From Vandammella animalimorsus (GTDB taxonomy: Bacteria > Pseudomonadota > Gammaproteobacteria > Burkholderiales > Burkholderiaceae_C), in contig NZ_NSJB01000004.1 in the NCBI RefSeq assembly GCF_002285265.1, forward strand, positions 62,001 through 126,000: 64,000 bases of DNA. Direction: 5' to 3'. A program made the position numbers and the translations under genes. Of this stretch, positions 32,772 through 62,715 are shown one piece after another (position 1 is the first letter of the stretch; each line of letters starts with the position of its first letter). The notes below the pieces were generated by a model. The model saw nothing but the letters and a program-made list of their open reading frames with translations. It ran no database searches and was not told the DNA's origin.

Positions 32772-33269
32772 ATGTCCCAACACTCCACCGCACCCCGCGT
32801 CGAAGCCAACACCGTGGTCACCATCCGCTACCGCATCGACGATGCCAAAGGCCGGCCCATGCAGGCCAAGGCCGAGCAAGTCGCCTACCTGCACGGCGGC
32901 TACGACAACCTGCTGCCCAAGATCGAGGCGGCCCTGCAGGGCCAGGCCGTGGGCCATGCCACCACCATCGACCTGCCGCCTGGCGACGGCTTTGGCCAGC
33001 GCGACGAAAACCTGGTGCTCACCATCGACAAATCCGAGCTTGCGCCTGGCACCAAAGTCGGCGGCCAAGTCCAGCGCCCCGGCCCCGATGGCGCGCCCCA
33101 GCTGCTGCGCGTGGCCAAGATCAAGGGCCAGCAAGTGCAGCTCGACGGCAACCACCCGCTGGCTGGCCAACACGTGCGCTTCGTGGTGCGCATCCTGGCC
33201 ATCCGCCCTGCCACACCCGAGGAAATCCAGCACCGCCACGCCCATGGCGCGCACGGCCACCAGCACTGA
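32772..33269 (+). CDS. FKBP-type peptidyl-prolyl isomerase, SlyD-like
   Basis: The 165-residue cytosolic isomerase and chaperone opens with NTVVTIRYRIDDAKG and has the SlyD hallmarks YLHGGYDNLLPKIEAALQGQAVGH and GDGFGQRDENLV, with an insert-in-flap domain in the middle. It ends in a histidine-rich tail (HRHAHGAHGHQH) that probably binds nickel or zinc, as in SlyD. ATG 32772 lies at the conserved start; an upstream in-frame extension to 32664 has no support. The stop TGA is the first three bases of a dispersed-repeat end. Confidence 0.9.
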   Translation: MSQHSTAPRVEANTVVTIRYRIDDAKGRPMQAKAEQVAYLHGGYDNLLPKIEAALQGQAVGHATTIDLPPGDGFGQRDENLVLTIDKSELAPGTKVGGQVQRPGPDGAPQLLRVAKIKGQQVQLDGNHPLAGQHVRFVVRILAIRPATPEEIQHRHAHGAHGHQH

Positions 33270-33294
33270 GCGCCTGTGCAACATCTCGGCGCGA
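33267..33294 (+). repeat. Solo arm of the dispersed fold-back repeat
   Basis: The TGA of the SlyD-like gene runs straight into GCGCCTGTGCAACATCTCGG and CGCGA, which matches the left arm of the long repeat copies (GAGCCTGTTCAAAATCTCGG, CGCGA). The 219 bp from here to 33513 hold no gene that I can support. Confidence 0.6.
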
Positions 33295-33513
33295 GTCGGC
33301 GAAAGCTGGCGCAGGCCCGCGCCACTCAGACGAAATCACGCACGCCCCATCCGCAGAGCATGGAAGGCGCCGTGATTTTCGAGCCGCTGGCGCGTTTTGC
33401 CGTTGCCTGCCAAGGCGACACCAAACACCATTGCCGCTATGGCCGGTGCGCTGTGGGGCGCACGCTGCAGCGCCAGCGCCACACTGACACAGCAATGCCA
33501 TGGCCCCAACCCT

Positions 33514-33704
33514 CAGAGCCTGTTGGGAACTTCAGTGCGGGTGAGCGAGAAGTGGCTCTGGGATGGGCTGCAAGGCGCCACCTTGCGTGCGCCTGGCAGC
33601 CATGGCGCAGCTATACAGCCATGACGAGGCTTTGCGGGCGCCGCAGACCGCAGCAATCGCCCTCATTGCCTGCCACGCAAAGCCTTTGCGCAGGCGCTGC
33701 TCAG
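33514..33704. repeat. Long copy of the dispersed fold-back repeat
   Basis: This copy is about 190 bp. It starts CAGAGCCTGTTGGGAACTTC and ends near GCAGGCGCTGCTCA. It shares long blocks with the copy at 46360: GAGAAG or AAGAAG followed by GATGGGC and GCAAGGCGCC, then GCAGCCATGGC, then GCGAGG or ACGAGG and CTTTGCGGGCGCC. Internal palindromes give it a fold-back character. Its right end supplies the stop codon of the minus-strand TonB receptor gene (33701-33703). Confidence 0.8.
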
Positions 33705-35914
33705 AACTCATAGTTCACGCGCACCATGAACGAGCGCGGCTCGCCCGGCATGTGGGAATTGCGCCAGTACTGCTTGTCGGCCAGGTTTTGTACGGCGAAG
33801 ACTGCTTGCAGGTCCGGCGCAATGCGCCAACCCAGCAGGGCGTCAAAGCGTGTGTAGCCGGCGATGGCCGTGTCATAGCTGGCTGGCGGGTTGGGGTAGC
33901 GCTTGCCTGTGTGCGCGCTGCTGAGCTCGGCAAACCATTGGCTGGCAGGGGCTACGTAGCGCACGGCCAGGCCGGCCTGACGACGGCTGGCGCCCGAGAG
34001 GTAACGGCCTTCGCGTTTGGGGTTGCCTGCGTCTTGCACGATCTTGGGCGACATCAGGCCCAGGGAGGCTCGTACATGCCAATGCGCATTGATCTGCCCG
34101 GTCAGACTGAAATCGATGCCCCTCGTGCGGTGCAGGCCGGCGACTTCGTAGCGATCGGGGTCATTGACCGGATCGGGCTGGTAGCGGATGTTGTGCTTGC
34201 TGAGCTGGTAGAACGCCAGGGTGCTGCTCAAGCGTCTGTCCAGCCATTCGCTTTTGATGCCGACTTCGATTTGCTTGTTGTATTGCGGCTCGCTGTCGAG
34301 TTTGGCGGGATTGCTGCGCAGGGTGAGCAAGTAACCGTTTCCGCCCAGCGGCGAGAAGCTGCGCGACCAGGAGGCGTAGAGGTTGTGATCGGGGTGGGGC
34401 GTCCAGACCAGGCCGGCGCTGGGGCTGAAGCTGGAGCCTTCAAAGTCGTGCGCGCCATAGCGGCTGAGCCTGAAGCCGTAGTCGTAGCGGTCGTAGCGCC
34501 CGCCCAGGGCGAGCTTGAGCGCAGGCGTCAGCTCGATGACGTCATTGAACAACAGCGCATGCGCGCGCGAGCTGTACTGGCTGTGCCCGCCGCCGGGCAC
34601 CAGGCGGTGTGTGTTGGCGGGCCAACCGGCCCGATCGTGCGGGTTGACGCCAAAGCGTGTGCTGAACAAGAGCGCGCCCGAGTCGCCTTCGTTGCGTTCA
34701 TCGGTGAAGTCGTAGCCGAGCATCAGGCGGTGGCGCAGCGGCCCGGTCTTGAACTGGCCATGCAGCGCCAGGCTGTTGCTGAGGGTGCGCTGCGTCTGGT
34801 CCACCCAGGAGTAATTGGGGTTGAACAGACCGCTGGCGGCGTTGTAGCTGCCCAGATAAAAGTGGTCGAAGTCGTGGTGTTGCGCGAGCCAGCCCAAGGT
34901 CCATTCCAGACGCCAGTCGGGCAGCATCTGGTATTGCAACTTGGAGCTGGCCATGCGCATGGTGTTGTCGATGTAGTCGCCAGGGCGGGCAAAGCCGTAG
35001 TTAAAGCGCAGCCCCATGGCGTCGTATTCGTTCTTGACTGGGCCGCGATCGGGAACGTACCAGCGGTTCTCCCAGGTGTACTGCCCTTCCCATTGCAGGC
35101 GGCGGTCGGTCGAGCGCCAGAGCACGCTGGGCGAGAGCAGCTTGTTGCGGTTCTTGATCAGGGGGCGGAAGGAATGGCCGCGGTCAAAATCGGCATTCAG
35201 GCGCACGGCCAGTTGCTCGCCAATGACACGGTTGAAATCCAACGCCGCGCCGCGGCGGCCCCAACTGCCGGCACGCAGACTGGCGCTGCTGTGGGCGTCA
35301 AAGCTGGCCTTCTTGCTGACCATGTTGACGACGCCGCCGCCTTGGCTGCGCCCATACAGCACCGAGGCCGGGCCTTTGAGGATTTCGATGCGCTCGACGT
35401 TGGAGGTGCTGCGGCGGAAATTGCCGCCGGTGCGAATGCCGTCGCGGTAGATATCGCCCATGTCGGCATCGAAGCCGCGGATAAGAATGCTGTCGTACCA
35501 GGCGCCATAGCCGGCATCCACGCCAGCGACGCCTTCGAGCATTTGCCCCAGGTCCTGGTAGCCGTGCTCGCGGTTGGCCTGCATGTCCACCGTCTCGATG
35601 GTGAAGGGCGTGTCTTTGGCGTCGATGTCGGCGCGGCTCACGCTGGCGCGCTGCGGGCGTACGTAAGCCTGCGTATCGGCCTGAGGCACGGCCGACGAGC
35701 CTGTGATCTCGACAGCAGGCAGCTCCTCAGCCTTGGGAGCTGCGGCCGGGACATCTTCCACAACCGCCTGACGCACCCTTGGCGCTGGCAGGCTTTGCCC
35801 TGCAGACTGGGCCGCAGCCGGAACGGCACAACAGGCCAATGCACCCAGCACCGCCGCACACACCAGCGTGTGTTCGACCAAGCAAGGCATGTGGTCAACC
35901 CTGGAAAAACTCAT
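33701..35914 (-). CDS. TonB-dependent siderophore receptor
   Basis: The 737-residue outer-membrane receptor has a signal peptide (to about residue 36), a linker with a TonB-box-like segment (ELPAVEITGS), a plug domain with DTPFTIETVD, IRGFDADMGDIYRDG and VERIEILKGPASVLYGRSQGGGVVNMVSKK, and a 22-strand barrel ending in Phe (VRVNYEF). The plug motifs fit the ferric siderophore subgroup (FhuA/FoxA-like). No secretin-like N-terminal signalling domain is present, so sigma/anti-sigma control is not expected. A Fur box is not obvious upstream. A hairpin with stem GCCCAC/GTGGGC (36034-36053) lies about 120 bp upstream. The siderophore is unknown. Confidence 0.92.
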   Translation of the reverse strand: MSFSRVDHMPCLVEHTLVCAAVLGALACCAVPAAAQSAGQSLPAPRVRQAVVEDVPAAAPKAEELPAVEITGSSAVPQADTQAYVRPQRASVSRADIDAKDTPFTIETVDMQANREHGYQDLGQMLEGVAGVDAGYGAWYDSILIRGFDADMGDIYRDGIRTGGNFRRSTSNVERIEILKGPASVLYGRSQGGGVVNMVSKKASFDAHSSASLRAGSWGRRGAALDFNRVIGEQLAVRLNADFDRGHSFRPLIKNRNKLLSPSVLWRSTDRRLQWEGQYTWENRWYVPDRGPVKNEYDAMGLRFNYGFARPGDYIDNTMRMASSKLQYQMLPDWRLEWTLGWLAQHHDFDHFYLGSYNAASGLFNPNYSWVDQTQRTLSNSLALHGQFKTGPLRHRLMLGYDFTDERNEGDSGALLFSTRFGVNPHDRAGWPANTHRLVPGGGHSQYSSRAHALLFNDVIELTPALKLALGGRYDRYDYGFRLSRYGAHDFEGSSFSPSAGLVWTPHPDHNLYASWSRSFSPLGGNGYLLTLRSNPAKLDSEPQYNKQIEVGIKSEWLDRRLSSTLAFYQLSKHNIRYQPDPVNDPDRYEVAGLHRTRGIDFSLTGQINAHWHVRASLGLMSPKIVQDAGNPKREGRYLSGASRRQAGLAVRYVAPASQWFAELSSAHTGKRYPNPPASYDTAIAGYTRFDALLGWRIAPDLQAVFAVQNLADKQYWRNSHMPGEPRSFMVRVNYEF

Positions 35915-36153
35915 GGCTCCATCTCCACTTGAGAGTCAATGCATCAACAAACGCATCCATTAAGGTGGCTGCGGCAACTTCTCGTGGGTGGGGCAATATT
36001 GAGGAATTTCAGATGGCCTTAATGGTCCGTCTTGCCCACATTTTTTAGTGGGCGCAAATCATACAGTGACGCAAAACCAAAGAAATGCTTGCCAGGCCTG
36101 GGCTTGGCAAAATTTCTCAGCCAGGCATGGCATGCAACAACATGGGCCTACAC

Positions 36154-36188
36154 AAAGAAAAAGGCCGCAACCTTACGGGTGCGGCCTT
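36154..36188 (-). terminator. Terminator of the lectin/IPTL-CTERM gene
   Basis: Reading the minus strand, a stem AAGGCCGCACCC pairs with GGTTGCGGCCTT (one mismatch) around a short loop and is followed by TTTTTCTTT. It lies about 20 bp after the stop codon. Confidence 0.85.
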
Positions 36189-36207
36189 CTGTGTGATGGT
36201 GTTCACA

Positions 36208-38979
36208 TCACTGGCGCTGGCGGCGGCGCAGGCCAAACACACCCAGCAGTGCGCTCAGGCTCAGCAGCGACCAGAGGTTGAGTGCCGGCACAGGCACAGT
36301 CGAAGGCAACACCAGGGCCTGTACATTCAAGCGCACCGTGGCTCGCAGGCAGGGGGCTGTGCCGCCTGGGCCGGTGCACATCTGGTAGTCGAAGCTCACC
36401 GCGCCAGTGAAGCCTTGCACAGGCGTGAAGGTGAAGCTGCCATCGGCCTTGAACTCCAGCGCGCCCTGGGTTGCAGGATCAGGCTCCGTGCCGGGCACCA
36501 GCGAGAACACTGCATTGGGCGGCGCGACATCGTTGATACCGACATTGCCCTTGATCGGCTGACCAGGAGCCCCCGTGAACTCGTCCGGCTGAACCGCTGG
36601 GGTGCTTGACACCTTGATGGTCACGCTCGTGTCTGCGCTGCAATGCGTGCCTGCCTCGTTGCAGACCTTGTAGCTGAAGGTGGCGTCACCGACGAAACCC
36701 TGCGCAGGCGTAAAGCTGAAGGTGCCATCCGGGTTGACCGTGGCCGTGCCGTTCGTGGCGCTGCCGGGCACCAGCGAGAACTTGGCGTTGCTCGGCTTGT
36801 CGTCGTTGGCGCCCAGGTTGCGCGATGCATCGACGGGCAGCTCAGTGTTCGGCGCCGTGCTGTAGCTGTCGGCAGTGGCCTTGGGGTTGACCTTGACGGT
36901 CACTGTGGCCTCAGCACAGGGATCGGTACCGCCGGGGCCAGAGCACACCTCGTAGGTGAAGCTGGCATCGCCCGAGAAGCCCTGCGCGGGCGTGAAGGTG
37001 TACGTTCCGTCAGGATTGACCATGGCCGTGCCCTGCGCCGCGTTCGGGGCGGTCTTGAGCTTGTAGGTCGCGCCTGCTGGCACTGTGTCGTTGGCCTTCA
37101 GATTGCCATTGACTGGCTGGTCCACCGTGGTTGTGGCGCTGTCGCCCTGCACCTGTGGCACTGTGGCGCTGACTTTCACCGTCACGCTCGTGTCTGCGCT
37201 GCAGTGCGTGCCTGCCTCGTTGCAGACCTTGTAGCTGAAGGTGGCGTCACCGACGAAGTCCTGTGCAGGCTTGAAGCTGAAGGTGCCATCCTGCTCGACC
37301 GTGGCCGTGCCTTGCGCAGCCGCAGGCGGCATCACCAGCGAGAACTTGGCATTGTTCGGCTTGTCGTCGTTGGCGCCCAGGTTGCGCGATGCATCGACGG
37401 GCAGCTCGGTGTTCAGCGCCGTGCTGTAGCTGTCGGTCGTGGCCTTGGGGTTGACCTTGACGGTCACCGTGGCTTCAGCACAGGGATCGGTACCGCCGGG
37501 GCCAGAGCACACCTCGTAGGTGAAGCTGGCATCGCCCGAGAAGCCTGCCGCCGGCGTGAAGGTGTAGGTGCCATCGGGATTGACCGTGGCCGTGCCCTGC
37601 GCCGCGTTCGGGGCGGTCTTGAGCTTGTAGGTCGCGCCCGCTGGCACCGTGTCATTGTCCTTCAGGTTGCCATTGACTGGCTGGCCCACTGTGGTCGTGG
37701 CTGCGTCCGGCTGTGCATTGGGGCCCACCACCACGGTCGCTACAGCCGTTTTGCAGTTGGCCGGGTTGGTGGCTGGCTGGTTGCAGACTTTGTAGGTAAA
37801 AGTGGCATCGCCAGCAAAGTCGGCCGCAGGCTCGAAACTGAAGCTGCCATCGCCATTGACAGTGGCTGTGCCACCGGTGACCTGGCCTTCCAGCGAGTAC
37901 ACGGCCCCGGGCAGGATGCCCAAGTCGTTGGCGCCCAGGGCATTGGGGGCGTCGGCGGCCACGTTCAGGGCTTGCCCATGGGGCGTGCTGTAGCTGTCGG
38001 ACGTTGCCTCCAGCTGCGCCTGGCGCACCGTCAGGTTGCGGATTTCATGGTGGTTGATGGCGCCGCCGGTGCTGGAGCTGAAGCCCATTTTGAAGGTGGC
38101 TGGCAAAGCAGCCATGCCATCGACAGGATCGCCATTGGCCTGCGTCAGCGGCAGCTGATCGACGATGGTCTGGCCTTCGAGAATGACCGTCAGCTTGACC
38201 TCCGGGCCCGGTGTGATGACGATGCGCACATTTTTGGCGCCATCGCGACTGCCCGTGAAGATCGTCGTATCGGGTGGCGGCATCGTCGGCATCTTGTTGT
38301 GCAGCAGCTTGAAGCCGGTGGTTTGGTTCTGCACATCGCCAGGCGCAAAGCCCCGCAGGTGCCCGGAGCCGCGCACCGCAACCCGATGCTGAAGACGATC
38401 GCATACCGTCACATTCGGGCCCACTTCGCAAACCCCAAATGTGGGATGGGAGAAGTTGCCGTATTCGTCAAAGCCAATGCCGACGTAACCGCTTTTGACC
38501 CCGGCCCCGTAATTCCCCCAGGAATAGCCCAGGCTGCCGCCGCGAGCGCCAACCACCGGGTCGGCCTCTGCGCCGTCGATCAGGTAGAAGGTGAAGCCGT
38601 CCCCGCCCTGGCCACTGTTCGTGCCCCAGGTGGCGTACTGGAAGCTCACATCCACACCCTTGCTGGAGCTGAATGCTTGTTTGTACAAGGCCGTTCCCGC
38701 TTGTGCCGCAGCCGCCTTGGTCAGGCGCAGCCAGCCTTCGCCGGGCGCATCTATGCCGCCAGGTGCGGCCGTCAGCACGGCAGGGTCAGACGCAGTGCCT
38801 CCAACAGGCCCCAGCAGGCTCCAGTCGGGCGCTGTTGCATTGCGAAAGGTTTCATCAATACTCAGCGGCGGCGTTTGTGCATGCACGGCACCCGCCACGC
38901 CCAGCAAGGCCAGGGCCGCGCCCCAGTGCCAGTGCATGGGCCGCTGCCCTGTAGGTTCTGATTTCTCGGCAGAAGGCAT
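36208..38979 (-). CDS. Surface protein: lectin-like domain, six Ig-like repeats, IPTL-CTERM anchor
   Basis: The 923-residue exported protein has a signal peptide (to about residue 35), then an L-type lectin-like domain (about 40-320; GDGFTFYLIDG, GSLGYSWGNYGAGVKSGYVG, GFDEYGNFS). Six Ig-like or cadherin-like repeats of roughly 90-95 residues follow, each with GTATVNPDGT(Y/F)(T/S)F(T)PA and GDA(S/T)F(S)Y(K/E)VC. The last 30 residues (VPALNLWS, hydrophobic helix, RRRQRQ) match the IPTL-CTERM sorting signal, which in known systems is processed by an exosortase-type enzyme. ATG 38979 has AGGAGA at the right distance; ATG 38994 is less likely. Each repeat has a Cys pair. A role in adhesion or matrix building is inferred. 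Confidence 0.85.
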   Translation of the reverse strand: MPSAEKSEPTGQRPMHWHWGAALALLGVAGAVHAQTPPLSIDETFRNATAPDWSLLGPVGGTASDPAVLTAAPGGIDAPGEGWLRLTKAAAAQAGTALYKQAFSSSKGVDVSFQYATWGTNSGQGGDGFTFYLIDGAEADPVVGARGGSLGYSWGNYGAGVKSGYVGIGFDEYGNFSHPTFGVCEVGPNVTVCDRLQHRVAVRGSGHLRGFAPGDVQNQTTGFKLLHNKMPTMPPPDTTIFTGSRDGAKNVRIVITPGPEVKLTVILEGQTIVDQLPLTQANGDPVDGMAALPATFKMGFSSSTGGAINHHEIRNLTVRQAQLEATSDSYSTPHGQALNVAADAPNALGANDLGILPGAVYSLEGQVTGGTATVNGDGSFSFEPAADFAGDATFTYKVCNQPATNPANCKTAVATVVVGPNAQPDAATTTVGQPVNGNLKDNDTVPAGATYKLKTAPNAAQGTATVNPDGTYTFTPAAGFSGDASFTYEVCSGPGGTDPCAEATVTVKVNPKATTDSYSTALNTELPVDASRNLGANDDKPNNAKFSLVMPPAAAQGTATVEQDGTFSFKPAQDFVGDATFSYKVCNEAGTHCSADTSVTVKVSATVPQVQGDSATTTVDQPVNGNLKANDTVPAGATYKLKTAPNAAQGTAMVNPDGTYTFTPAQGFSGDASFTYEVCSGPGGTDPCAEATVTVKVNPKATADSYSTAPNTELPVDASRNLGANDDKPSNAKFSLVPGSATNGTATVNPDGTFSFTPAQGFVGDATFSYKVCNEAGTHCSADTSVTIKVSSTPAVQPDEFTGAPGQPIKGNVGINDVAPPNAVFSLVPGTEPDPATQGALEFKADGSFTFTPVQGFTGAVSFDYQMCTGPGGTAPCLRATVRLNVQALVLPSTVPVPALNLWSLLSLSALLGVFGLRRRQRQ
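36601..37705 (-). repeat. Segmental duplication of about 560 bp inside the IPTL-CTERM gene
   Basis: Repeats 2+3 and 4+5 of the protein are almost identical at DNA level. For example, GCAGACCTTGTAGCTGAAGG occurs at about 36661 and 37221, and CAGCACAGGGATCGGTACCG at 36912 and 37476. A two-domain unit of about 560 bp has therefore been duplicated in tandem. Confidence 0.85.
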
Positions 38980-39143
38980 GGCTGATCTCCTCATGAAAAA
39001 TGGCTGGGCGCAGGCAAGGTTTGTCTGCGCCCCAAAGATTCTGGATACGTTCGGACACCGATTGTATTTCCAGATTTGCGTTTCAGTTATCGATACAACT
39101 ATTTGTTTTCAAAAATAATTTTCCAGGTTTTTCTGTTTGGCGC

Positions 39144-39350
39144 TCAGTGCAGTTTGCACAAGCGGCTGTCGCCGGTGGCGCGCAGCACCTTGCCCTGCAT
39201 GTCACAGAGGATGAGCATGGACTGCCTGCTGGCCAGCCACTTCTGCGCCTGCTTAAGCACCGGGTCGGCCACACACAGCAGTTCAGCGCTTTGCAATAAG
39301 AGCTCAAGCCTGGCCTGCAGGTCCAGCACCTGAGTGCGGGCCGATTGCAC
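39144..39350 (-). pseudogene. Possible remnant of a sigma-54 activator (AcoR-like) N-terminal region
   Basis: This short 68-codon frame includes LLCVADPVLKQAQKWLASRQ and SMLILCDMQGKVLRATGD. It resembles the segment in AcoR-type activators where a helix leads into a GAF/PAS-like strand (VLLTDADGVIL). No ATPase or DNA-binding part follows. It would be a decayed fragment or a small unrelated gene. The likeness was judged by eye only. The rest of the 584 bp between the IPTL-CTERM gene and sitA holds only the operator-like dyads described separately. Confidence 0.3.
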
Positions 39351-39442
39351 GGGCGCCTGCTGTGTGTCCTGGGGCTGTGCCTGCTGTGCTTCTCCGCCTC
39401 TGCATGCGCTCGCTGCCCATGCCGCATGGCAGCCCCAGGCGG

Positions 39443-39489
39443 TATAGCGGCAGCTATATTAGAATGGATTAGCACTGGCTATACAGTGC
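39443..39489. promoter_or_regulatory. Two operator-like dyads upstream of sitABCD
   Basis: The first dyad is TATAGC-GGCA-GCTATA (39443-39458) and the second is GCACTG-GCTATA-CAGTGC (39472-39489). Both are perfect inverted repeats, share GCTATA, and lie in a short AT-richer patch 75-120 bp before sitA. This is the expected place for a metal-responsive repressor (MntR-, Fur- or Mur-type); the actual regulator is not identified. Confidence 0.6.
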
Positions 39490-39563
39490 CACAGCCAGCC
39501 ACAAGCCAGCCATACACGGCGCCGTCGCGCGCGTCTGTCCATTTCTTTTTCCAAGAGCTGCCG

Positions 39564-40550
39564 ATGTCTGAATCCCTCGTTTTCCCCTTCTTCATCCGTG
39601 GCCTGCAGGGCTTGCCCAGCCTGTTGCAGCGCCTGCGCCGCATGCCCTGGCTGCTGGCCGCGCTGTTGCTCAGTGGCCTGTGCGCCAGCAGCGCCGCGCT
39701 GGCGCAATCGCAACCGGCGGCGGCCCCTGACAAGAAGTTCAAGGTTGTCACCACCTTCACCATCATTGCCGACATGGCCCGCAATGTGGCTGGCGATGCG
39801 GCCACGGTCGAGTCCATCACCAAGCCGGGCGCGGAAATCCACGGCTACCAGCCCACGCCGGGCGATCTGGTGCGGGCCCAGGGCGCGCAGTTGATTCTGT
39901 GGAACGGGCTGAACCTGGAGTCCTGGTTCGAGCGCTTCTACCAGCGCCTCGATGGCGTGCCCAGCGCCGTCGTCTCCAAGGGCGTGACGCCGATCGACAT
40001 CGCCCAGGGGCCGTATGCCGGCAAGCCCAACCCACACGCCTGGATGTCGCCCGCGGCCGCCATGGTCTATGTGGACAACATCCGCGATGCGCTGGTGCAG
40101 CACGACCCGGCCCATGCCGCCACCTACACGGCCAATGCCAATGCCTACAAGCAGCGCATCGAGGCGGCCATCGCACCGATCCGCAGCACGCTGGAGCAAC
40201 TGCCCCAGGAGCGCCGCTGGCTGGTCAGCAGCGAGGGGGCGTTCAGCTATCTGGCGCGCGACTTCGGCCTGCGCGAGCTGTACCTATGGCCCATCAACGC
40301 CGACCAACAAGGCACGCCGCAGCAGGTGCGCCGCGTCATCGACGCCGTGCGCGAGCACAAGATCCCGGCGATCTTCAGCGAGAGCACGATTTCCCCGGCG
40401 CCGGCGCAGCAGGTGGCGCGCGAGGCCGGCATCCACTACGGCGGCGTGCTGTACGTGGATTCGCTGACCGAGGCCGACGGCCCGGTGCCCACCTACCTGG
40501 ACCTGCTGCGCGTGACCAGCGAAACCATTGCCAAGGGCCTGACACCGTGA
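39564..40550 (+). CDS. sitA: Manganese/iron ABC transporter binding protein SitA
   Basis: The 328-residue cluster A-I metal receptor has metal ligands visible as His93 (EIHGYQPTP), His158 (KPNPHAWMSP), Glu224 (SSEGAF) and Asp299 (LYVDSL). The combination ITKPGAEIHGYQPTPGD and LILWNGLNLESWFERF is typical of SitA (Mn2+/Fe2+) and not of ZnuA, which has a His-rich loop that is absent here. The N-terminus carries about 25 residues before the hydrophobic signal core; a start at the internal Met before PWLLAALLL is possible. Its stop overlaps the GTG of the next gene. Confidence 0.9.
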   Translation: MSESLVFPFFIRGLQGLPSLLQRLRRMPWLLAALLLSGLCASSAALAQSQPAAAPDKKFKVVTTFTIIADMARNVAGDAATVESITKPGAEIHGYQPTPGDLVRAQGAQLILWNGLNLESWFERFYQRLDGVPSAVVSKGVTPIDIAQGPYAGKPNPHAWMSPAAAMVYVDNIRDALVQHDPAHAATYTANANAYKQRIEAAIAPIRSTLEQLPQERRWLVSSEGAFSYLARDFGLRELYLWPINADQQGTPQQVRRVIDAVREHKIPAIFSESTISPAPAQQVAREAGIHYGGVLYVDSLTEADGPVPTYLDLLRVTSETIAKGLTP

Positions 40551-43271: not shown

Positions 43272-43367
43272 GAGCCACTCATCCCCAGGCATCCAGGCCC
43301 TGCAGCCTGCGCATGCCACAGCCCAACACGAGCGCAGCGGCCCTGCGCAACAACAGCACTGCATGCC

Positions 43368-44276: not shown

Positions 44277-44398
44277 GATTCTGCCCCTGGCAGGCGGGAA
44301 CTTTTGCGCGACAGCGCCAATCAACCGGCGATGCGCTGCCACCAGGCAGTGCCTGAGCGCCTGCTCTCACATCCCCCACCGCGCCTTCAATCGCCACC

Positions 44399-44962: not shown

Positions 44963-45032
44963 ACGCTGCTGCGCCGCCCAGGCCGCGCGGCCCGCCACAA
45001 AAGCCGGCATTTTTTCCTAGAGGAGTTCCTGC

Positions 45033-45605: not shown

Positions 45606-45693
45606 ACACGCCCAGCAGGCCCGCAGTGCTGCGCAAGCAGGCAAGCAAGGGCCGCTGGATTTTTACCCGCCCCCATCGACAGGAGATTTCCCC

Positions 45694-46284
45694 ATGCGTT
45701 CACGCTCCCTCACGCTTGCCGCCGCCAGCGCCGCGGCCCTGCTGTGTCTGGCCGCGCCGGCACAGGCGGCCAGCTACACCATCGACCCCAATCACACCTT
45801 CGTGACTTTCGAGATCGACCACAACGGCACCTCCACCAACCGCGGGCGTTTCGACAAAGTGCAGGGCAGCATCGAGTTCGACCGCGATGCCAAGACCGGC
45901 CAGGCCGACATCAGTGTCGACATGCGCTCCATCAACACCGGCACGCCCGGCTTTGACAAGCACCTGCAATCGGCCGATGTCTTCAACGCTGAGCAATTTG
46001 CCACGGCGCGCTTTGTCAGCGAGCGTTTCGTCTTCGAGGACAACGGCAAAATCAACGAAATCCACGGCCAGCTCACGCTGCTGGGCCAGACCCACCCGGT
46101 GACCATCGAGGCCGAGCGCTTCAACTGCTACGCCAACCGCATGCTGCAAGGCCGCGAGACCTGCGGCGGCGACTTCGAGCTGAGCATCGACCGCACCCGC
46201 TGGGGCCTGAACTACGCCACCCAATACGGCGCCGCCAAAGACGTGAAGATCATCATCCAGATCGAGGCGGCCAAGGCAAAGTAA
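45694..46284 (+). CDS. YceI-family periplasmic protein (second copy)
   Basis: The 196-residue protein has a signal peptide ending at AQA and the YceI core SYTIDPNHTFVTFEIDHNG, MRSINTGTPGFDKHLQSADVFNAEQFATARFVS and GQLTLLGQTHPVTIEAERFNCY. It is diverged from the upstream YceI, which is a different subtype, so it is not a recent duplicate. ATG 45694 follows AGGAG. It has two cysteines (NCY and ETCGG) that could form a disulfide. Confidence 0.92.
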   Translation: MRSRSLTLAAASAAALLCLAAPAQAASYTIDPNHTFVTFEIDHNGTSTNRGRFDKVQGSIEFDRDAKTGQADISVDMRSINTGTPGFDKHLQSADVFNAEQFATARFVSERFVFEDNGKINEIHGQLTLLGQTHPVTIEAERFNCYANRMLQGRETCGGDFELSIDRTRWGLNYATQYGAAKDVKIIIQIEAAKAK

Positions 46285-46359
46285 GCACGCTGCGCCACAG
46301 GGCAGGCCGCGGCCGGCCTCTTGCAGATCGGGCGCAGGCCCGGGGCGCACAAGCGCTCA

Positions 46360-46543
46360 CAGAGCCTGTTCAAAATCTCGGCGCGAGGGGGCAAGAAGCG
46401 GTTTGGAAGATGGGCCGCAAGGCGCCTGCCCTGCGCACACCTCGCAGCCATGGCCGCAAAACCATGGCGAGGCTTTGCGGGCGCCACAGAGCGCCCAAAT
46501 CCACTTTCTTGCCAGCCGTGCAAAGAGCTTGAGCAGGCACTCA
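46360..46543. repeat. Long copy of the dispersed fold-back repeat
   Basis: The copy starts CAGAGCCTGTTCAAAATCTC and ends GAGCAGGCACTCA. The right arm, read on the other strand (GTGCCTGCTCAAGCTC, then GGCAAGAAAGTGGATTTGG), matches the left arm (GAGCCTGTTCAAAATCTC, then GGCAAGAAGCGGTTTGG), so the whole unit is a long imperfect inverted repeat. The centre has nested palindromes such as GCCATGG with CCATGGC. Its right end provides the stop of the IS110 fragment. Confidence 0.85.
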
Positions 46544-46948
46544 GGCGGCCAACGGCACAGGCGTGGCCAGGGCGGCGCGCCAGGCCTGGGTGTGCAGGCC
46601 ATACAGCGCCAGCACGTGGCTGTCGATGCGCTCGCGCTGGCAGCGGATGCCCAACACCGTGCGGGCAAACAGGCGAGCCTTTTGCTGATCGACACGGGCC
46701 ACGCGCACCCCGACGACGCGCAAGGCCAACTCCACGGCCTCATTGCCCCTGGCCTCGCCAGACAAGGTGACGTGCATTTTGTTGAAGGCCATGGCCGGCC
46801 AGTTCTGGCGCAACCAGCCCAGCAGGTGATCTGCCCCACGCACTTGGCCACTGACCGCCTTGGGGTTTTGTTCGAGCTGACCAGGCTGGTGGTGCACGGC
46901 ACAGCAGTCGAGCCCTGCATCGGCCACATCAATTCCCAGATACAACAT
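46541..46948 (-). pseudogene. Truncated IS110-family transposase
   Basis: This 135-codon N-terminal fragment starts with MLYLGIDVADAGLDCCAVHH, matching the first acidic motif of the IS110 DEDD nuclease domain. It continues with GADHLLGWLRQNWP, a degenerate VTLSGEARGNEAVELAL in place of the conserved MEATG region, and RIDSHVLALYGLHTQAWRAAL. The C-terminal transposase part, with the serine motif, is missing. The frame ends inside the adjacent repeat. It is a dead insertion-sequence remnant. Confidence 0.8.
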
Positions 46949-47475
46949 GACAGCGCATCCTTTCCTCTGCGCCTGTGCAAGATCTCGGCGCGATGGGGCC
47001 AGAGATCGTGAACAGGCTTTCCCAGACTCTGAACGCCCGCATCACCTGGTGTGCGGGCCTCTCACTTCCTTGAAGACCAGCGCCGCAGCCATCGCATCTT
47101 GCAACAAAGCCCTGCAAACCATTGCAGCCTCTTTGCTGATGCGCCCACTACGGCACCGGCACCCTGTCCCTGCAGGCGGCATGGACTGCAACCTGCGGAG
47201 CCACGGAGTGTGGCGAGGCCATAGTTTGCAATTTTTTTAAATTATTTTGCGATTAATTGACATTCCACTAGGGCTTTCACACAGTGAACGCTTCCATGAG
47301 TTAGGGAAAGTCCGCACCAGCGCAGTGTTGCCGTGAGCGCTGCGGATCGGGGGATGGGGTGCAAGGCACGCGCCGGCGGCCATGGCCCCAGCCATTGCAA
47401 GAGCAAGCAACGCAGCAGGCTGCCCGGGAGAGGCCGCAAATGCACTCGGCGCGGCGATCCGCGCAGGCCCTGCTT
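46949..47475. other. 527-bp region without a supported gene
   Basis: The left part holds a short hairpin copy of the dispersed repeat (46971-47017). The middle has an unusually AT-rich stretch (about 47228-47262, TTTTTTTAAATTATTTTGCG) unlike its surroundings. The right part has no recognisable gene. The whole interval, with the IS110 remnant, looks like decayed mobile DNA. Confidence 0.5.
46971..47017. repeat. Short hairpin copy of the dispersed repeat
   Basis: GCCTGTGCAAGATCTC (46971-46986) pairs with GAGATCGTGAACAGGC (47002-47017) with two mismatches around a 15-base loop. Both arms are variants of the long-copy arm GAGCCTGTTCAAAATCTC. This is a minimal form made of the two ends only. Confidence 0.8.
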
Positions 47476-50313
47476 TCAGGCGGGCCGGCCCCGCCCCGCC
47501 GCAGGCCCGCCCAGCGGCACGACGCGCGTGGCATCTGGCATGCCGTCATCGTTGAAGTGGGTCTGCAAATCCACTTCCAGCCTGCCCAGCAGGCTGTCCT
47601 GGCCGGCTACGGCCTTTGCGGCCTTTGCATCAGTCGCAGCCTCGGCCTGTGGCATGGCCTTGGGCGGCAGGGGCGAATGCACCGTCAAAAGCTCTTCTGG
47701 CGGCTGGTATTGAGTCAAGGCCACGCGGGTGGCGCGCAGCATCAGCCCTTCTTGGTCCAAGGGCACCAGCAGGCCGGCATCGAAGTAGGCCGCCAGCGTG
47801 CGCAATTTCAGCAGACAGCTGCGGCCATCGGCAGCCAACAGCACGTGCAGATGCCGCTGCTTGCTGTGCCAGACGTATTGCATGCGCACGGCCACGGGGT
47901 CTGCCTCCGGCGCCCGCTGGGTCATCAGGTCGAAGGACTCGCCCACCGTGCGCGTGCGCGCCCATTCGAGCACTTGTGGGCTCAGTGGCCGCGGCTGCGC
48001 GGGCTCTTCCAGCACGATCAGACCGGCCAGCTCCACGCCCAGCATCAGCTCGACGTTCTCACGGCTGAGGGGGATGTCGTCCACTTCATCATGGCCAATG
48101 AAGTTCTCCAGATTTTCCAGGCGTGCCGAAACCTGCTTGAGCTGATCGGCAGGAATGGGTTTGGAGCGCGCCAGAAAGGCCTCCTGCACCCAGGCATTGA
48201 CCTGCTCAATCATGGCCTGCTGCGCCATGTCCACCACGCCCACCAGGGCCAGGCCCTGGCGCAGCCGCTGCAGCAGCGCAGGCAGGGCCTGTGCCACGCG
48301 CCTGCGTTCGGACTTGCTGGACTTGGCGCTGCAGGCCCACATCAGCAAGGCCGCGGCGCGCTTGAAGCGCAGGGTTTCCTGGCCTTTGACGCCTTCGCGC
48401 ACGGCGCAGACGGCCAGCACCTCGGCCCAGGTCTTGAAGAGAAAGCTGCGCGCTTCCTCACGGATGGGCAGATCCTGCAGCATCTTGCGCAGCTCGATGG
48501 TGAACTTGACCAGCAAGGTTTCCTTCTCCTCCACCTGCTGCGCCACGGACATGGCCTTGCCCGCCAGTTGGTTCTCGGAGAGGAATTTCTGCAAAAAGCG
48601 CTCGAACTCGGTCAGCGCCAGCTGGAACACTTTCACGCCCATGTCCGGGTACTGCTCGATGGTCTGCACGATGCGGCGCAGCTCCTGCTCCAGCGCACTG
48701 CCCTGGAAGTTGGCGCCGTCAAAGCCCATGGCCGCACTGCCCATGCGGTCGATGAGGCGGCGCACGGTGTGGTCCATGTCGGTAAAGAAGCTCGGATCGG
48801 CCAACGCAATGCGCAGCACCGGCACCTGCAGGCGGGCGAACAGCACGCGCACGGCCGATGGCACGCGGTCTTCGGACAGCACACTCTGGAACATCAAGGC
48901 CACCAGCTCGATGATGGCTTTTTCGTTGGGTTGCTCGGCCCCCTCCTTGATGACCTGGGACTGCTGCAGCGCCAGCTGCGCCACCTGGGCGCTGGCCACG
49001 GGCGAGGACTTCTGGAATGCGGTCTGCGCCTGCACGTCCTTGAGCTGTTCGACAACCTGGGCCTGCTGCACCTGCATGACTTGCATCAGCCGCGGCGTCA
49101 GCACAGTCGGCTGGGTCTCGGGCACATCGCCATTGGCGGTCACGCCCGGCGAGGCCTGCACCGCATCGCCGACGACGTAGGCCATGCGCGTGAGCACATC
49201 GTGCTGCAAGGCCTGCACCTGCTGCAGCGCCGGTTGGCCAAAGCGCGCCTGCGGCGCCTGCAGCACCGGCCCCACAGGCAGCGGTGCACCGGGCACGAGA
49301 ATCTGCGGCGCCAAAAATTCCGCCGCCGGCACGGCTTCGCCAGCGACCACGGCCTGCGCAGCGGCCACGGCAGGGCCACCCATCACGACCTGGCCAGGCG
49401 CAGCAGCGCCGTCCCCGCCGGCCACCGCACCGCCAGCAACCACGCCCATGGGCGTCGCCACCGCCCCTGCCGCCGTCCCTGCCACCGGCATGGCCCCCGC
49501 TGGCGCATGCACCACGGCCCCTGCAGGCACCATGTGCTGATAGGCTGGCGCGCCGGCCATCACGGCGCCTGGCACCATGGGCATGGCCACCGGCACCTGC
49601 GCTGCCGCGGGCTGGGGCGCAGCCGGCCCCTGGCCTCTGGAGGCGGCTGCATCCTGCAAGGGCGCAGGGGCCGAGATGGGCTTGATGCCAATGCCCCGCT
49701 CTTCCAGAAAGACGTTGCTGGCTTTGTAGGCCTGCAGCAGCAGGGCTGCCCATTCCTTGGTGATGCCCTCCATGACCCAGGTAAAGCAGGCCTGGGGCAG
49801 GCCGGCGCGGCGCCAGGCATCGACCAGGTTCTCGGCCACCTGCGTCGGCTGCACGGGGTCGTTGGGATCGAGGCGCTGGTACTCCAGCTGCAGCAGGCGC
49901 TTGCGCAGTTCGGTAAAGCCCGGATCCACCTTCTCGGCCACCTGCATGCTCATGCGCGAGGAGGCAATCAGGCCTTCGATGGCGTCGTCGCTGATGAGCT
50001 GCAGATCGTCGATGTCTGCCAGGCCTTCGAGCGAGCGGCGCTTTTTCACCGGCACGGGATCGACAAAGGCCGTGCGCCAGGTGTCCAGCAGGCCCTGGGC
50101 CCAGCTGCGCCGCTGCAGCACATAGTCCTGGTACCAGGTCTGGATGGGCACCGAGGGCGCGTTCAGGTCGCGGAAATCGCTGTCGCTGAAGGCTTCGAAG
50201 CGCTGCACCACCAGCCGGTCCAGCTCGGGGATGCTGGTGCACAGGCTTTGCAGGAAGTGCTGCCTGGCCATTTTGGCCAGGGTTTCGGAGTCGTTCGGAT
50301 TGGGGGTATCCAT
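47476..50313 (-). CDS. DUF1631 family protein with low-complexity insert
   Basis: The 945-residue protein belongs to the DUF1631 family of beta- and gammaproteobacteria, whose role is not established to my knowledge. The N-terminal part (about 1-220; ARQHFLQSLCTSIPELDRLV, GLPQACFTWVMEGITKEW) and the C-terminal two thirds (VALMFQSVLSEDRVPSAVRVLFARLQVPVLRIALADPSFF; HPVRRLIDRMG-like VRRLIDRMGSAAMGF) look conserved. Between them lies an insert of about 150 residues made of Ala, Gly, Pro, Val and Met with no charged core. There is no signal peptide or membrane segment. ATG 50313 is preceded by GAGGGA; a TTG at 50337 is less likely. It is a single gene. Confidence 0.85.
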   Translation of the reverse strand: MDTPNPNDSETLAKMARQHFLQSLCTSIPELDRLVVQRFEAFSDSDFRDLNAPSVPIQTWYQDYVLQRRSWAQGLLDTWRTAFVDPVPVKKRRSLEGLADIDDLQLISDDAIEGLIASSRMSMQVAEKVDPGFTELRKRLLQLEYQRLDPNDPVQPTQVAENLVDAWRRAGLPQACFTWVMEGITKEWAALLLQAYKASNVFLEERGIGIKPISAPAPLQDAAASRGQGPAAPQPAAAQVPVAMPMVPGAVMAGAPAYQHMVPAGAVVHAPAGAMPVAGTAAGAVATPMGVVAGGAVAGGDGAAAPGQVVMGGPAVAAAQAVVAGEAVPAAEFLAPQILVPGAPLPVGPVLQAPQARFGQPALQQVQALQHDVLTRMAYVVGDAVQASPGVTANGDVPETQPTVLTPRLMQVMQVQQAQVVEQLKDVQAQTAFQKSSPVASAQVAQLALQQSQVIKEGAEQPNEKAIIELVALMFQSVLSEDRVPSAVRVLFARLQVPVLRIALADPSFFTDMDHTVRRLIDRMGSAAMGFDGANFQGSALEQELRRIVQTIEQYPDMGVKVFQLALTEFERFLQKFLSENQLAGKAMSVAQQVEEKETLLVKFTIELRKMLQDLPIREEARSFLFKTWAEVLAVCAVREGVKGQETLRFKRAAALLMWACSAKSSKSERRRVAQALPALLQRLRQGLALVGVVDMAQQAMIEQVNAWVQEAFLARSKPIPADQLKQVSARLENLENFIGHDEVDDIPLSRENVELMLGVELAGLIVLEEPAQPRPLSPQVLEWARTRTVGESFDLMTQRAPEADPVAVRMQYVWHSKQRHLHVLLAADGRSCLLKLRTLAAYFDAGLLVPLDQEGLMLRATRVALTQYQPPEELLTVHSPLPPKAMPQAEAATDAKAAKAVAGQDSLLGRLEVDLQTHFNDDGMPDATRVVPLGGPAAGRGRPA

Positions 50314-50451
50314 GCCGCGATCCCTCAGGATGTTCAAAGACAGCTGCCGCCGCCCCGCAAATGCAGCCCCGCCCTGCTCGCTGCGCCCCTCAGAAGCGGT
50401 TCAAAGGCCTCGGGCAAACCTTGCCTGAGCAGGGCCGGGGTGGTGGCGACT

Positions 50452-51402
50452 TTACACCACGGCGCCCGCGTTGGGGTCGTTGGGGTTGGCGCTGCTCTTG
50501 CCTGGCTTGATCAGGTCCTCGCGCTTGACGCCCATCCACAGCACCAGGCCCGAGCCAACGAAGATCGACGAGTACACGCCAAACACGATGCCGATGGTCA
50601 GCGCCAGCGCAAAATAATGCAGGCTGGGGCCGCCAAAGAACAGCATGCACAGCACCATGGCCTCGGTCGAGGCGTGGGTGATGACCGTGCGGCTCATGGT
50701 GCTGGTGATGGCGTGGTCCAGCACCTGCTGCGTCGTCATCTTGCGGTGCTTGCGGAACATCTCCCGCACCCGGTCGAAGATCACCACCACCTCGTTGACG
50801 GAATAGCCAAAGACGGCCAGCACGCCAGCCAGCACCGCCAGCGAGAACTCCCACTGGAAGAAGGAGAAAAAGCCCAGGATGATGACCACGTCGTGCAAGT
50901 TGGCGATGATGGCCGCCAGGCCGAACTTCCACTCGAAGCGCAGCGCCAGGTAGATGGTGATGCCCAGCGCCACGAACAGCAGCGCCAGCAGGCCCTTTTC
51001 CGTGAGCTCGTCGCCAATTTGCGGGCCGACGAACTCGTTACGCAGCAATTGCACGCCCGGCTCGGTCTTTTGCAGCTCGGCCAGCACCTGCGCGCTTTGC
51101 TGGTCGGCGCTGGCGCCCTCGCGCGCCGGCAGGCGGATGAGCACATCGCGCGCCGTGCCGATGTTCTGCACCTGCACATCGCTGTAGCCCATGCCGCCTA
51201 CGCGCGCGCGCACCTGCTCCAGGTCGGCCGCCTGCGGGTATTGCACCTGCATTACGGTGCCGCCGGTGAACTCAACCGACAGATTCAGGCCCTTGGTGGC
51301 CAGAAAGAACACCGAGAGCACGAACAACACGATGGACACGATGTTGAACACCAACACGTGCCGCATGAAGGGGATGTCTCGCTTGATCTTGAAAAATTCC
51401 AT
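50452..51402 (-). CDS. secF: Preprotein translocase subunit SecF
   Basis: The 316-residue membrane component of the SecDF-YajC accessory complex uses the proton gradient to help protein export. It has six membrane segments, a periplasmic P4 domain after the first (LSVEFTGGTVMQVQY), and the family signature FGYSVNEVVVIFDRVREMFRKHR. It lies 11 bp after secD in the same operon. Confidence 0.96.
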   Translation of the reverse strand: MEFFKIKRDIPFMRHVLVFNIVSIVLFVLSVFFLATKGLNLSVEFTGGTVMQVQYPQAADLEQVRARVGGMGYSDVQVQNIGTARDVLIRLPAREGASADQQSAQVLAELQKTEPGVQLLRNEFVGPQIGDELTEKGLLALLFVALGITIYLALRFEWKFGLAAIIANLHDVVIILGFFSFFQWEFSLAVLAGVLAVFGYSVNEVVVIFDRVREMFRKHRKMTTQQVLDHAITSTMSRTVITHASTEAMVLCMLFFGGPSLHYFALALTIGIVFGVYSSIFVGSGLVLWMGVKREDLIKPGKSSANPNDPNAGAVV

Positions 51403-51413
51403 GCTGCTCTCCC

Positions 51414-53354
51414 TCAGACGCGCTGTTCAGGTTGCTTGGGGGCCGATGACGCCAGCGCCGTCGTGCCAGCACTGGTGGCAGACGCTGCAGGGGCATCCGC
51501 CTCGGGCCGCCAGACCTGGCCGATGGAGATGGACTTCAGGCGCTTGCGCCGGCCATACCAGAGGTTGACCAGGCCGCGCGAGAAGAACACCGCCGAGAAC
51601 ATGCTGGTGAGCACGCCAATGCAATGCACCACGGCAAAGCCGCGCACCGGGCCATGGCCGAAGGCCAGCAGCGCAAAGCCCGCAATCAGTGTGGTGACGT
51701 TGGAGTCCAGAATCGTCGCCCAGGCGCGCTCATAGCCGGCGTGGATGGCCGCCTGCGGCGAGGCGCCGGCGCGCAGCTCCTCGCGGATGCGCTCGTTGAT
51801 CAGCACGTTCGAGTCGATCGCCACGCCCAGCGCCAGCGCCATCGCGGCAATGCCCGGCAGCGTCAAGGTGGCCTGCAGCATGGACAGCACGGCCAGCAGC
51901 AGCAGCACGTTGACCACCAGCGACAGCGAGGAGAACACGCCGAACATCATGTAATAGGCGCACATGAAAGCCACGATCAGCAGCATGCCCCACAGCACGC
52001 TTTGCTGGCCGCGCTCGATGTTCTCCTGGCCCAGGCTGGGGCCGATGGTGTATTCCTCGATGATTTCCATCGGCGCGGCCAGTGCGCCCGAGCGCAGCAG
52101 CACGGCCACTTCATTGGCCTCGCGCGTGGTCATGGAGCCGGAGATCTGCACGCGGCCGCCTGCGATTTCCTGGCGGATCACCGGCGCGGTCACGACCGTG
52201 CCCCGGCCACGCTCGAACAGGATGATGGCCATGCGCTTGCCCACGTTCTCGCGCGAGACATCGCGGAAGATGCGCGCGCCGGGCCCGTCGAACTCCAGGT
52301 TGACCACGGGCATGTTGCCGCGCTGGGTGTCAAAGCCCGGCTGGGCATCGATGAGGTTCTCGCCGGTGAGCACGACCTGACGCTGCACGATGACGCGCTG
52401 GCCTTCGGCATCGTTGAAGACTTCCGAGCCGAACGGCACGGGCCCTCTGCCGCTCTCGGCCGCGCGGCCTTCGGTGGATTCGTCCACCATGCGCACCTGC
52501 AGCGTGGCCGTGCGGCCAATCATGCGCTTGGCCTGGGCCACGTCCTGTACGCCCGGCAGCTGCACGACGATGCGGCTGTTGCCCTCCTGCTGGATCACCG
52601 GCTCGGCCACGCCCAACTCGTTGACGCGATTGTGCAGCGTGGTGATGTTCTGCTTGAGAGCCTGCTCCTGGATGTGCTTGACGGCCTCGGGCGTGAACAC
52701 CAGGCGCAGCTTGGCATCGCTGGAGGCCGCGGCATCGGGCGTCAGATCACGGAAATGGTCGGCCACGACGTTGCGGATCAGCTCGCCATCTTGCGGGTTG
52801 CGCAGCGTGATGTCGATGGCCTGGCCATCACGGCGCAGGCCGCCGTGGCGGATGTTGCGTTCGCGCAAGGCCGTGCGCAGGCCGCTGAGCAAGGCCTCGC
52901 TGCGCTGCACCAGCGCCCCGTCCATGTCCACCTGCAAGGTGAAGTGCACCCCGCCGCGCAGATCCAGCCCCAGGTACATCGGCTTGGCATGGATGGCTTG
53001 CAGCCAGCCCGGGGTGCGCGAGAGCAGGTTCAGCGCCACCGAGTAGTCCGGCTGGTTCTCATCGGGCACCAGTGCTGCGGCGATGGCATCGCGCGCCGGC
53101 ACCTGCGCATCCTGCGTATGCAGGCGCACGCGCAGCGACTGGGCGTCGCGCTCCATGCTCTTGGGCTCGATCTGCTGCTTTTGCAGCACGTTGAGCACGC
53201 GCGCCTGCAGCGCATCGTCAATGGGCACGTCATCGCGCAGCGAAGCGACCTGGACGGCGTAGTCCTCGCCAAAAATATTGGGCAGCGTGTAGAGCAGCCC
53301 AACGACCAACGCAATCGCCATGATTGCGTATTTCCATAAGGGATAGCGGTTCAT
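51414..53354 (-). CDS. secD: Preprotein translocase subunit SecD
   Basis: The 646-residue partner of SecF has an N-terminal membrane segment (MNRYPLWKYAIMAIALVVGLLYTLPNIFGEDYAVQV), a large periplasmic P1 domain (YLGLDLRGGVHFTLQVDMD; ELGVAEPVIQQEGNSRIVVQLPGVQD), and five further membrane segments with GIAAMALALGVAIDSNVLINERIREEL. The length is typical (about 615-650). It follows yajC, but about 230 bp of repeat-containing DNA separates the two genes. Confidence 0.96.
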   Translation of the reverse strand: MNRYPLWKYAIMAIALVVGLLYTLPNIFGEDYAVQVASLRDDVPIDDALQARVLNVLQKQQIEPKSMERDAQSLRVRLHTQDAQVPARDAIAAALVPDENQPDYSVALNLLSRTPGWLQAIHAKPMYLGLDLRGGVHFTLQVDMDGALVQRSEALLSGLRTALRERNIRHGGLRRDGQAIDITLRNPQDGELIRNVVADHFRDLTPDAAASSDAKLRLVFTPEAVKHIQEQALKQNITTLHNRVNELGVAEPVIQQEGNSRIVVQLPGVQDVAQAKRMIGRTATLQVRMVDESTEGRAAESGRGPVPFGSEVFNDAEGQRVIVQRQVVLTGENLIDAQPGFDTQRGNMPVVNLEFDGPGARIFRDVSRENVGKRMAIILFERGRGTVVTAPVIRQEIAGGRVQISGSMTTREANEVAVLLRSGALAAPMEIIEEYTIGPSLGQENIERGQQSVLWGMLLIVAFMCAYYMMFGVFSSLSLVVNVLLLLAVLSMLQATLTLPGIAAMALALGVAIDSNVLINERIREELRAGASPQAAIHAGYERAWATILDSNVTTLIAGFALLAFGHGPVRGFAVVHCIGVLTSMFSAVFFSRGLVNLWYGRRKRLKSISIGQVWRPEADAPAASATSAGTTALASSAPKQPEQRV

Positions 53355-53440
53355 GATCGTCCTATATCCAAGTCACAGTCGCTGCAGGGCGCAAAACATG
53401 CGCCCCATGGGCCCAGCGCAGTGTGTCGTCGCCACCAGGG

Positions 53441-53586
53441 GCTTGGTCAAAATCTCTGCGCAGCCGGTGATGAAGCGGATTGGGGCCGGCTGCGCCACCT
53501 GTAAGACGCCGCGCATCAAACGCCTTGCGGCCACCCAAACCGCTTCTTGCCCACACTCGCACCAAGAGCGCGAGCAGGCTCTTACG
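53441..53586. repeat. Long copy of the dispersed fold-back repeat, inverted, within the yajC-secDF operon
   Basis: Read on the minus strand it begins TAAGAGCCTGCTCGCGCTC, continues GGCAAGAAGCGGTTTGGG and GGCCGCAAGGCG as in the 46360 copy, and ends GAGATTTTGACCAAGC. The plus-strand left end is GCTTGGTCAAAATCTC. The first three bases, TAA, are the yajC stop codon. A further inverted pair (CAGCCGG and CCGGCTG) sits near the secD side. Confidence 0.8.
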
Positions 53587-62652: not shown

Positions 62653-62715
62653 AGCGTGTTATGCACTTTGCCCCGCGCGCGAGTCGCAGCGCCGCACCTT
62701 TGAACGGGCTCTTAC
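62649..62715. repeat. Short repeat with inverted ends between rimI and the next gene
   Basis: It starts TTAGAGCGTGTTATGCACTT and ends CCTTTGAACGGGCTCTTAC. The ends are imperfect inverted copies (TAGAGCGTGTT and, on the other strand, TAAGAGCCCGTT). It resembles the outer ends of the longer repeat family but has a different middle. Confidence 0.65.

Follow-up and report, generated by a model that had tools for sequence, protein, structure and literature searches.

Why do copies of a dispersed fold-back repeat end on the stop codons of genes? This question is raised by a stretch of 64,000 nucleotides from Vandammella animalimorsus (contig NZ_NSJB01000004.1, positions 62,001 to 126,000; the whole stretch is called the window below), in which a sequence-only reading had described a repeat family whose outermost bases double as stop codons. 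The repeat family is a real miniature inverted-repeat transposable element (MITE) of about 161 bp. A conserved apex hairpin is very probably combined here with exchangeable ends, in a family predicted to depend for its movement on an IS5-family DDE transposase supplied in trans. The idea of a MITE with a stop-codon-like target is borne out: the element duplicates the triplet TNA, and about half of its copies lie exactly on a stop codon.

The copies align above chance. The best window copy, at 46360, aligned to 63 pieces of its own genome (3.1 Mb in 22 contigs) at E ≤ 10, and the 19-nt end, with up to two mismatches, gave 73 matches, whereas the reversed control gave none. A fresh copy measures about 161 bp, starts with GAGCCTGTTC and finishes with the reverse complement of GAGCCTGTTC. 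Ten genomes of the genus were compared, the sister genomes being labelled G005, G007, G009 and so on. Identical 3-base flanks were observed in 15 of 30 own copies, 14 of these being TNA, and in 29 of 37 copies from G005, G007 and G009, 28 of these being TNA. Copies of the own genome and of G007 are up to 99% alike. Orthologous loci without the element were sought in the genus for seven sites, half of the 14 prepared. Clean empty sites with a single TNA were found at two of them, L007 and L008, in two relatives each; three others (L003, L005 and L010) are filled in G007.

A candidate partner is present in the sister genomes. PF13340 proteins occur in 7 of the 10 genomes of the genus, and in the sister genomes several of them lie within elements of 841–848 bp with the ends GARCCTGTTCAAAATCTT or near variants. 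These insertion sequences (IS) carry two overlapping open reading frames (ORFs), DUF4096 (PF13340) and DDE_Tnp_1 (PF01609), and are therefore assigned to the IS5 family; we take them to belong to the IS427/IS1031-like group. The terminal inverted repeats of the MITE match those of the autonomous IS over 18-bp ends with 1–4 mismatches. Among the nine listed IS copies with both flanks, six have identical TNA flanks (L104–L107, L089 and the internally deleted L093) and three do not (L083, L097 and L102; L090 is a repeat of L083). Compared by eye over the first 45 bases, the likeness between MITE and IS ends after the end repeat, and the MITE interior gives no sign of derivation from the IS by deletion. 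Such a derivation is not required of all MITEs. The predicted IS5-family transposase, acting in trans, would use TNA and duplicate it.

TAA and TGA are stop codons, and TTA and TCA are stop codons on the other strand, so that any TNA can serve as a stop that faces the element. Since every TNA is a stop on one strand, the duplication regenerates the stop and the protein is unchanged. This agrees with the earlier proposal that insertion re-uses the stop rather than truncating the protein. After insertion into its stop codon, a gene would still end in a stop. Where a genome is compact and GC-rich, stop-codon sites would be among the few harmless targets, and selection would concentrate the surviving copies there. 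At L007 and L009, the sequence of relatives indicates that the stop predates the insertion.

A copy was counted as stop-sharing when its exact TNA codon ends an ORF of at least 134 amino acids (aa) with a coding score of at least 29. By this test, 16 of 29 own copies are on the exact stop of an ORF; the count of 29 leaves out L022, one end of which is from the other family. Pfam domains are present in 13 of the 16 stop-sharing genes, including CinA, PurD, TonB barrel, MFS, creatininase and exonuclease VII. The non-coding TNA sites of the window served as the null. They are stops in 51 of 248 cases by our own gene calls, and by the same test as the copies in 47 of 221 (134-aa cut-off) or 53 of 221 (60-aa cut-off). 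The respective p values for 16 of 29 are 4e-5, 7e-5 and 3e-4, and the 13 Pfam-backed stops alone give p = 0.004. The suggested preference for gene 3' ends is thus seen in the own genome. In an extension to sister-genome copies, 19 of 37 are on stops. Without the recognised repeats of one insertion or of a repeated gene, the figure is 14 of 32 (p = 0.003 against 51 of 248 and 0.011 against 53 of 221), the non-stop copies having been screened for repeats against own copies only. The copies left out are L287 and L308 (flanks common with own copies), L281 (the same gene end as L013), and L312 and L313 (repeats of L304 and L303). Gene calling on the joined flanks was crude (8 stop, 12 coding and 17 intergenic among 37 copies) and was superseded by the exact-stop test and Pfam.

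Several points weigh against the reading of the family as a stop-re-using MITE moved by an IS5-family enzyme. No PF01609 or PF13340 match was found in the own genome; its copies are therefore probably stranded, with no resident transposase as judged by these two domains. The site alignments of L002 and L009 are contiguous but less clean: a relative retains part of the right end at L002, and the flank is diverged at L009. The 134-aa cut-off was set after the list had been seen, and a 60-aa cut-off gives the same 16 copies. Finally, the autonomous IS is at a stop in 0 of 11 copies (Fisher p about 0.001), a small sample counted in sister genomes, in which two of the 13 IS copies (L081 and L087) without a testable flank were omitted. 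Therefore, target choice alone does not give the stop bias, and selection over time is likely to add to it. The re-use of stops offers a simple account of harmless residence on stop codons, and every genome that has IS5 elements with a TNA target allows the rule to be checked.

The window was searched by pairwise alignment with two fresh copies and the 46360 copy as queries. Its copies and the associated transposase fragment are as follows.

33267..33300, plus strand: remnant with the left arm only (33269-33300); TGA at 33267-33269 precedes the arm.
33513..33703, plus strand: degenerate full-length copy, about 33516-33700; TCA at 33513-33515 on the left and at 33701-33703 on the right.
46357..46543, plus strand: best window copy, about 46362-46540; TCA at 46357-46359 and two extra bases on the left, TCA at 46541-46543 on the right.
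46541..46948, minus strand: IS110-like transposase fragment between two copies; weak (PF01548, E = 0.08).
46969..47017, plus strand: short form with two end repeats face to face and without the core, from arm matches and alignment.
53440..53584, minus strand: degenerate copy, inverted; TTA at 53582-53584 is the stop of the minus-strand yajC, which is Pfam-supported.
62649..62714, plus strand: mixed-end copy (62652-62711) with TTA on both sides; left end of the second family, right end of the first.

Five of the six forms named by the sequence-only reading were recovered: 46361-46541 (E 7e-35), 53441-53582 (both arms, inverted, E 2e-9), 33515-33698 (E 8e-9; the copy is 73% alike to the 46360 copy), 33269-33300 (E 4e-6) and 46971-47003 (E 1e-6 to 5e-5). 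For the sixth, 62649-62715, the match is confined to the last 16 nt (E 0.34), because the left end is that of the second end family; its right end does belong to the family. The arm GCCTGTTCAAAATCTC, with up to three mismatches, has seven matches in the window against 0.35 in shuffles, five of them within the copies named earlier and two (15601 and 41882) outside these. The 46360 copy is predicted to fold back as single-stranded DNA (z -2.5), as had been proposed, and a fresh copy from outside the window gives z -8.2. The weaker matches claimed at 6810, 10513, 10948 and 19941 could not be upheld: their best agreement is 10–12 of 18–20 letters, and they are absent from both the arm-pattern and the pairwise-alignment results.

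Stop sharing had been claimed for five genes. It stands for the TonB receptor, where the right TCA (33701-33703) is the stop codon of a minus-strand gene with TonB barrel and Plug domains (Pfam), and for yajC. It also stands for rimI (GNAT domains), whose stop TAG at 62650-62652 spans the boundary: TA comes from the target and G is the first base of the element. TCA at 46541-46543 is the stop of the IS110-like fragment. The identities of this fragment (E 0.08) and of the "SlyD-like" gene (E 0.05) are weak, both being below curated cut-offs. Elsewhere in the window, a 928-aa ORF (36208-38994, minus strand) has internal direct repeats with a spacing of about 564 bp, up to 94% alike.

The earlier interpretation as a MITE was right, but it did not foresee the wide sharing of the core among elements with different ends. 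This core, M, is the apex hairpin of the element, about 50 nt long: GTTG-C(stem a)-CYYG-(stem b)-CTGCG-(stem a')-GCGCCTTG. In other genera of the same bacterial family, matches are limited to the central part, and the repeats around them have other ends. When the 84,980 species of a collection were scanned with a pattern, at least 117 stretches matched. Among 80 of these, about 59 bear Burkholderiales names, and the rest are other proteobacteria, one Lujinxingia and some metagenome bins. Covariance models, applied at E ≤ 0.001 per genome, detected M in 53 of 276 genomes of the class and, with a broader model, in 65 of 299 genomes of the phylum, 30 of these belonging to other classes. The own genome is included in both counts; by a rough calibration, clearly less than one genome, or at most a few, would be expected by chance. 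No M match was found in phages; six plasmid records have matches, none annotated under the match. The core was also seen under labels outside Pseudomonadota, namely Lujinxingia vulgaris (L149), a bin labelled Bacteroidetes (L115, L136, L143, L154, L168 and L176) and a bin labelled Clostridiales (L129 and L152). Binning errors are possible for these bins, and some loci under such labels have AT-rich ends.

Ends were placed by an end finder for 74 of 82 cores. Several placements are inside longer palindromes, and only types seen repeatedly are named below with their target duplications.

End type GAGCCTGTTC: duplication TNA.
End type GAAGNTGTGAACGAATCC: duplication TGA.
GGATGCTCTGCACGAATC-like end type: duplications CTAG and TTAA.
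End type GGCAACGCTGAACAAGTC: duplication CTAG.
TGTRNTGT-like end type: duplication CTAG.
AT-rich end type GTAACGCATAAAAAATAAAT: duplication TAA.

At the named loci, M thus sits in fold-back elements whose ends and duplications are of several unrelated kinds. Some longer elements, about 255–270 bp in length, contain two copies of M, one per strand, separated by a small hairpin; M was matched on both strands in 10 of 74 loci. In G317, the genome of L170 (Ramlibacter rhizophilus), a further inverted-repeat family of about 121 bp has the ends GAAGGTGTGAATGAATCT and GAAGGTGTGAAGGAATCG. A single conserved core can occur in MITEs that are ordinarily sorted into separate groups according to their ends, and their classification would change accordingly. 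M also suggests that about a fifth of the phylum genomes sampled (65 of 299) harbour a cis-acting hairpin that has gone unrecognised.

How might M work? Among 90 motif sequences, 92% of cells pair, and two-sided changes number 211 against 14–35 with the partners slid. In the three inner pairs of stem a, 186 Watson-Crick, three G-T and eight A-C combinations were counted. Stem a alone suggests pairing at the DNA level, in what is a weak test; stem b and two G-U/U-G pairs do not, as described below. We favour a role of M in cis, more probably as a DNA hairpin than as RNA.

The alternative is that M works as RNA at gene 3' ends, where it terminates, stabilises or is cut, and that copies at stops are kept for that. 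It would explain why about half of the copies directly follow a stop codon while the IS with the same ends never does. The core lies on the same strand as the stop-sharing gene in nine own copies and on the opposite strand in six (15 of the 16 copies, L019 being omitted), and in 13 and 6 copies of the extension. Together these make 22 to 12 (p = 0.12), an excess in the expected direction but a small one. The end type GAAGNTGTGAACGAATCC is flanked by TGA, not TCA, in the orientation of the core, and several of these loci lie in sense behind the stop of a gene. The near-invariant G-U and U-G pairs and the G-T combinations of stem b would also suit RNA, but stem a shows no G-T excess. A terminator scan of one fresh copy gave three terminator-like sites in 601 bases against 0.8 expected; one of them consists of the stem of the core itself and the TGCGTTTTGC behind it, which is no clean T-run. 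On this weak match, a transcription terminator was set aside. Rfam gave no match at gathering score in the window, and for eight loci up to E = 5 it gave five matches, none on the core and all below gathering scores. We regard the RNA role as rather unlikely.

The best hint at an exchange of ends is given by mixed-end copies. Ends are probably replaced arm by arm, and the core probably persists through an action in cis, irrespective of the transposase that serves the ends. A second end, GAGCGTGTTATGCACTTTGC, has 26 matches in the own genome against 0 in the control. It once flanks a copy of 160 bp, which has TGA at either side and contains a hairpin resembling the core, with four mismatches to the pattern. 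The copy at G000:C1:146690-146830 agrees with the first end in 17 of 18 letters and with the second in 18 of 20, and has TTA on both sides. The mixed-end window copy at 62652-62711 has the second end on the left (20 of 20) and the first on the right (13 of 18). In G009 (L104:2281-2546), an autonomous IS adjoins a two-hairpin element of the second end family; TTA is common to both, and the far side of the element has TAA.

These copies allow a wider reading, offered as a possible rather than a probable one. M would be an old DNA hairpin module that acts in cis and has spread through Pseudomonadota by whatever DDE transposase fits its current ends. The ends would be swapped singly and then matched by arm-to-arm copying. 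M would be the lasting unit of selection, the ends would be disposable adaptors, and the conserved unpaired bases would be read by a protein. M might instead be a functionless passenger, spread via recombination among MITEs. The near-identical cores of sister species (up to 99%) fit a passenger, and the mixed-end copies show that parts recombine. Compensated stem changes and fixed unpaired blocks across the phylum, however, are not expected of a drifting passenger, and we consider this explanation unlikely.

The main reading of the family, with its conserved core and exchangeable ends, also faces difficulties on the side of M. The alignment behind the covariation counts was fitted to a model already holding the structure, which favours it. 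Stem b has 17 G-T and 11 A-C combinations, and the two near-invariant pairs of the motif are G-U (81 of 89) and U-G (87 of 90), neither of which speaks for the DNA level. The covariance searches covered genomes of the phylum only. For two other end types, no IS-sized end pair was found by eye, and MITE-sized pairs were seen (G013, G014, four named genomes). We know of no protein that binds M.

A comparison with known systems places the family more closely. Like REPIN/REP palindromes, it has imperfect palindromes, in the long form as inverted pairs (PMC3116915, PMC3733652). A REP/REPIN system moved by a RAYT (Y1) transposase is nevertheless very improbable here: the ends are of DDE type, the duplications are TNA, and a GTAG/CGTC tag was not apparent on reading of the motif, no search for tags having been made. 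Mobilisation by RAYT was rejected on the absence of Y1_Tnp matches from five element-rich genomes of the genus (own genome, G005, G007, G008 and G009). Y1_Tnp is present in the other five genomes, among which G004 alone has copies (13).

ISPsp10, an IS5-family element of the IS427 group, was reported to insert just upstream of TAA, so that the target supplies its stop codon (PMC4133298). It has two ORFs, as the partner IS has, and takes a stop from its target. In that case, however, the stop was missing from the IS's own ORF and the duplication was the dinucleotide TA, whereas here a non-coding element re-uses host stops and TNA is duplicated. QMITE2 is reported to have a stable stem in alpha- and gammaproteobacteria with a diverging tip, and its alphaproteobacterial form is without terminal repeats (PMC5896051). 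It resembles the present elements in this stem and tip, in overlapping gene 3' ends and in being an IS target, in its case of IS1111. It is set apart by its description: the direct repeats are 7–9 bp and unique to each copy, and the small form is termed a REP element. An IS110-like fragment lies between two window copies (46541-47017), and IS1111 is reported to insert into QMITE2 (PMC5896051); by analogy, IS110 relatives may target such hairpins.

Other bacterial MITEs, such as Correia/NEMIS, RUP and MITEAba12 (PMC2229807, PMC6382973, PMC10969869), are likewise small and non-coding, with terminal inverted repeats matching an IS, a target duplication and mostly intergenic positions. RNase III cuts transcripts with Correia elements (PMC10969869). 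In the present family, unlike these, the centre is a covarying hairpin that is present too where the ends are unrelated. A search within the review PMC10969869 gave no occurrence of "stop codon". A literature search with thin coverage of subscription journals turned up neither a title nor an abstract that deals with one core under different ends or with MITEs of this kind re-using stops; the nearest published systems are QMITE2 and ISPsp10. MITEs are a known kind, and the conserved core and exchangeable ends set the present variant apart. A parallel is seen in the CORE-SINEs of eukaryotes, in which a conserved central domain is joined to exchangeable ends that borrow different enzymes. CORE-SINEs are RNA retroposons, not DNA fold-backs. 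If the module reading is true, M with its adaptor ends would be a bacterial counterpart of CORE-SINEs.

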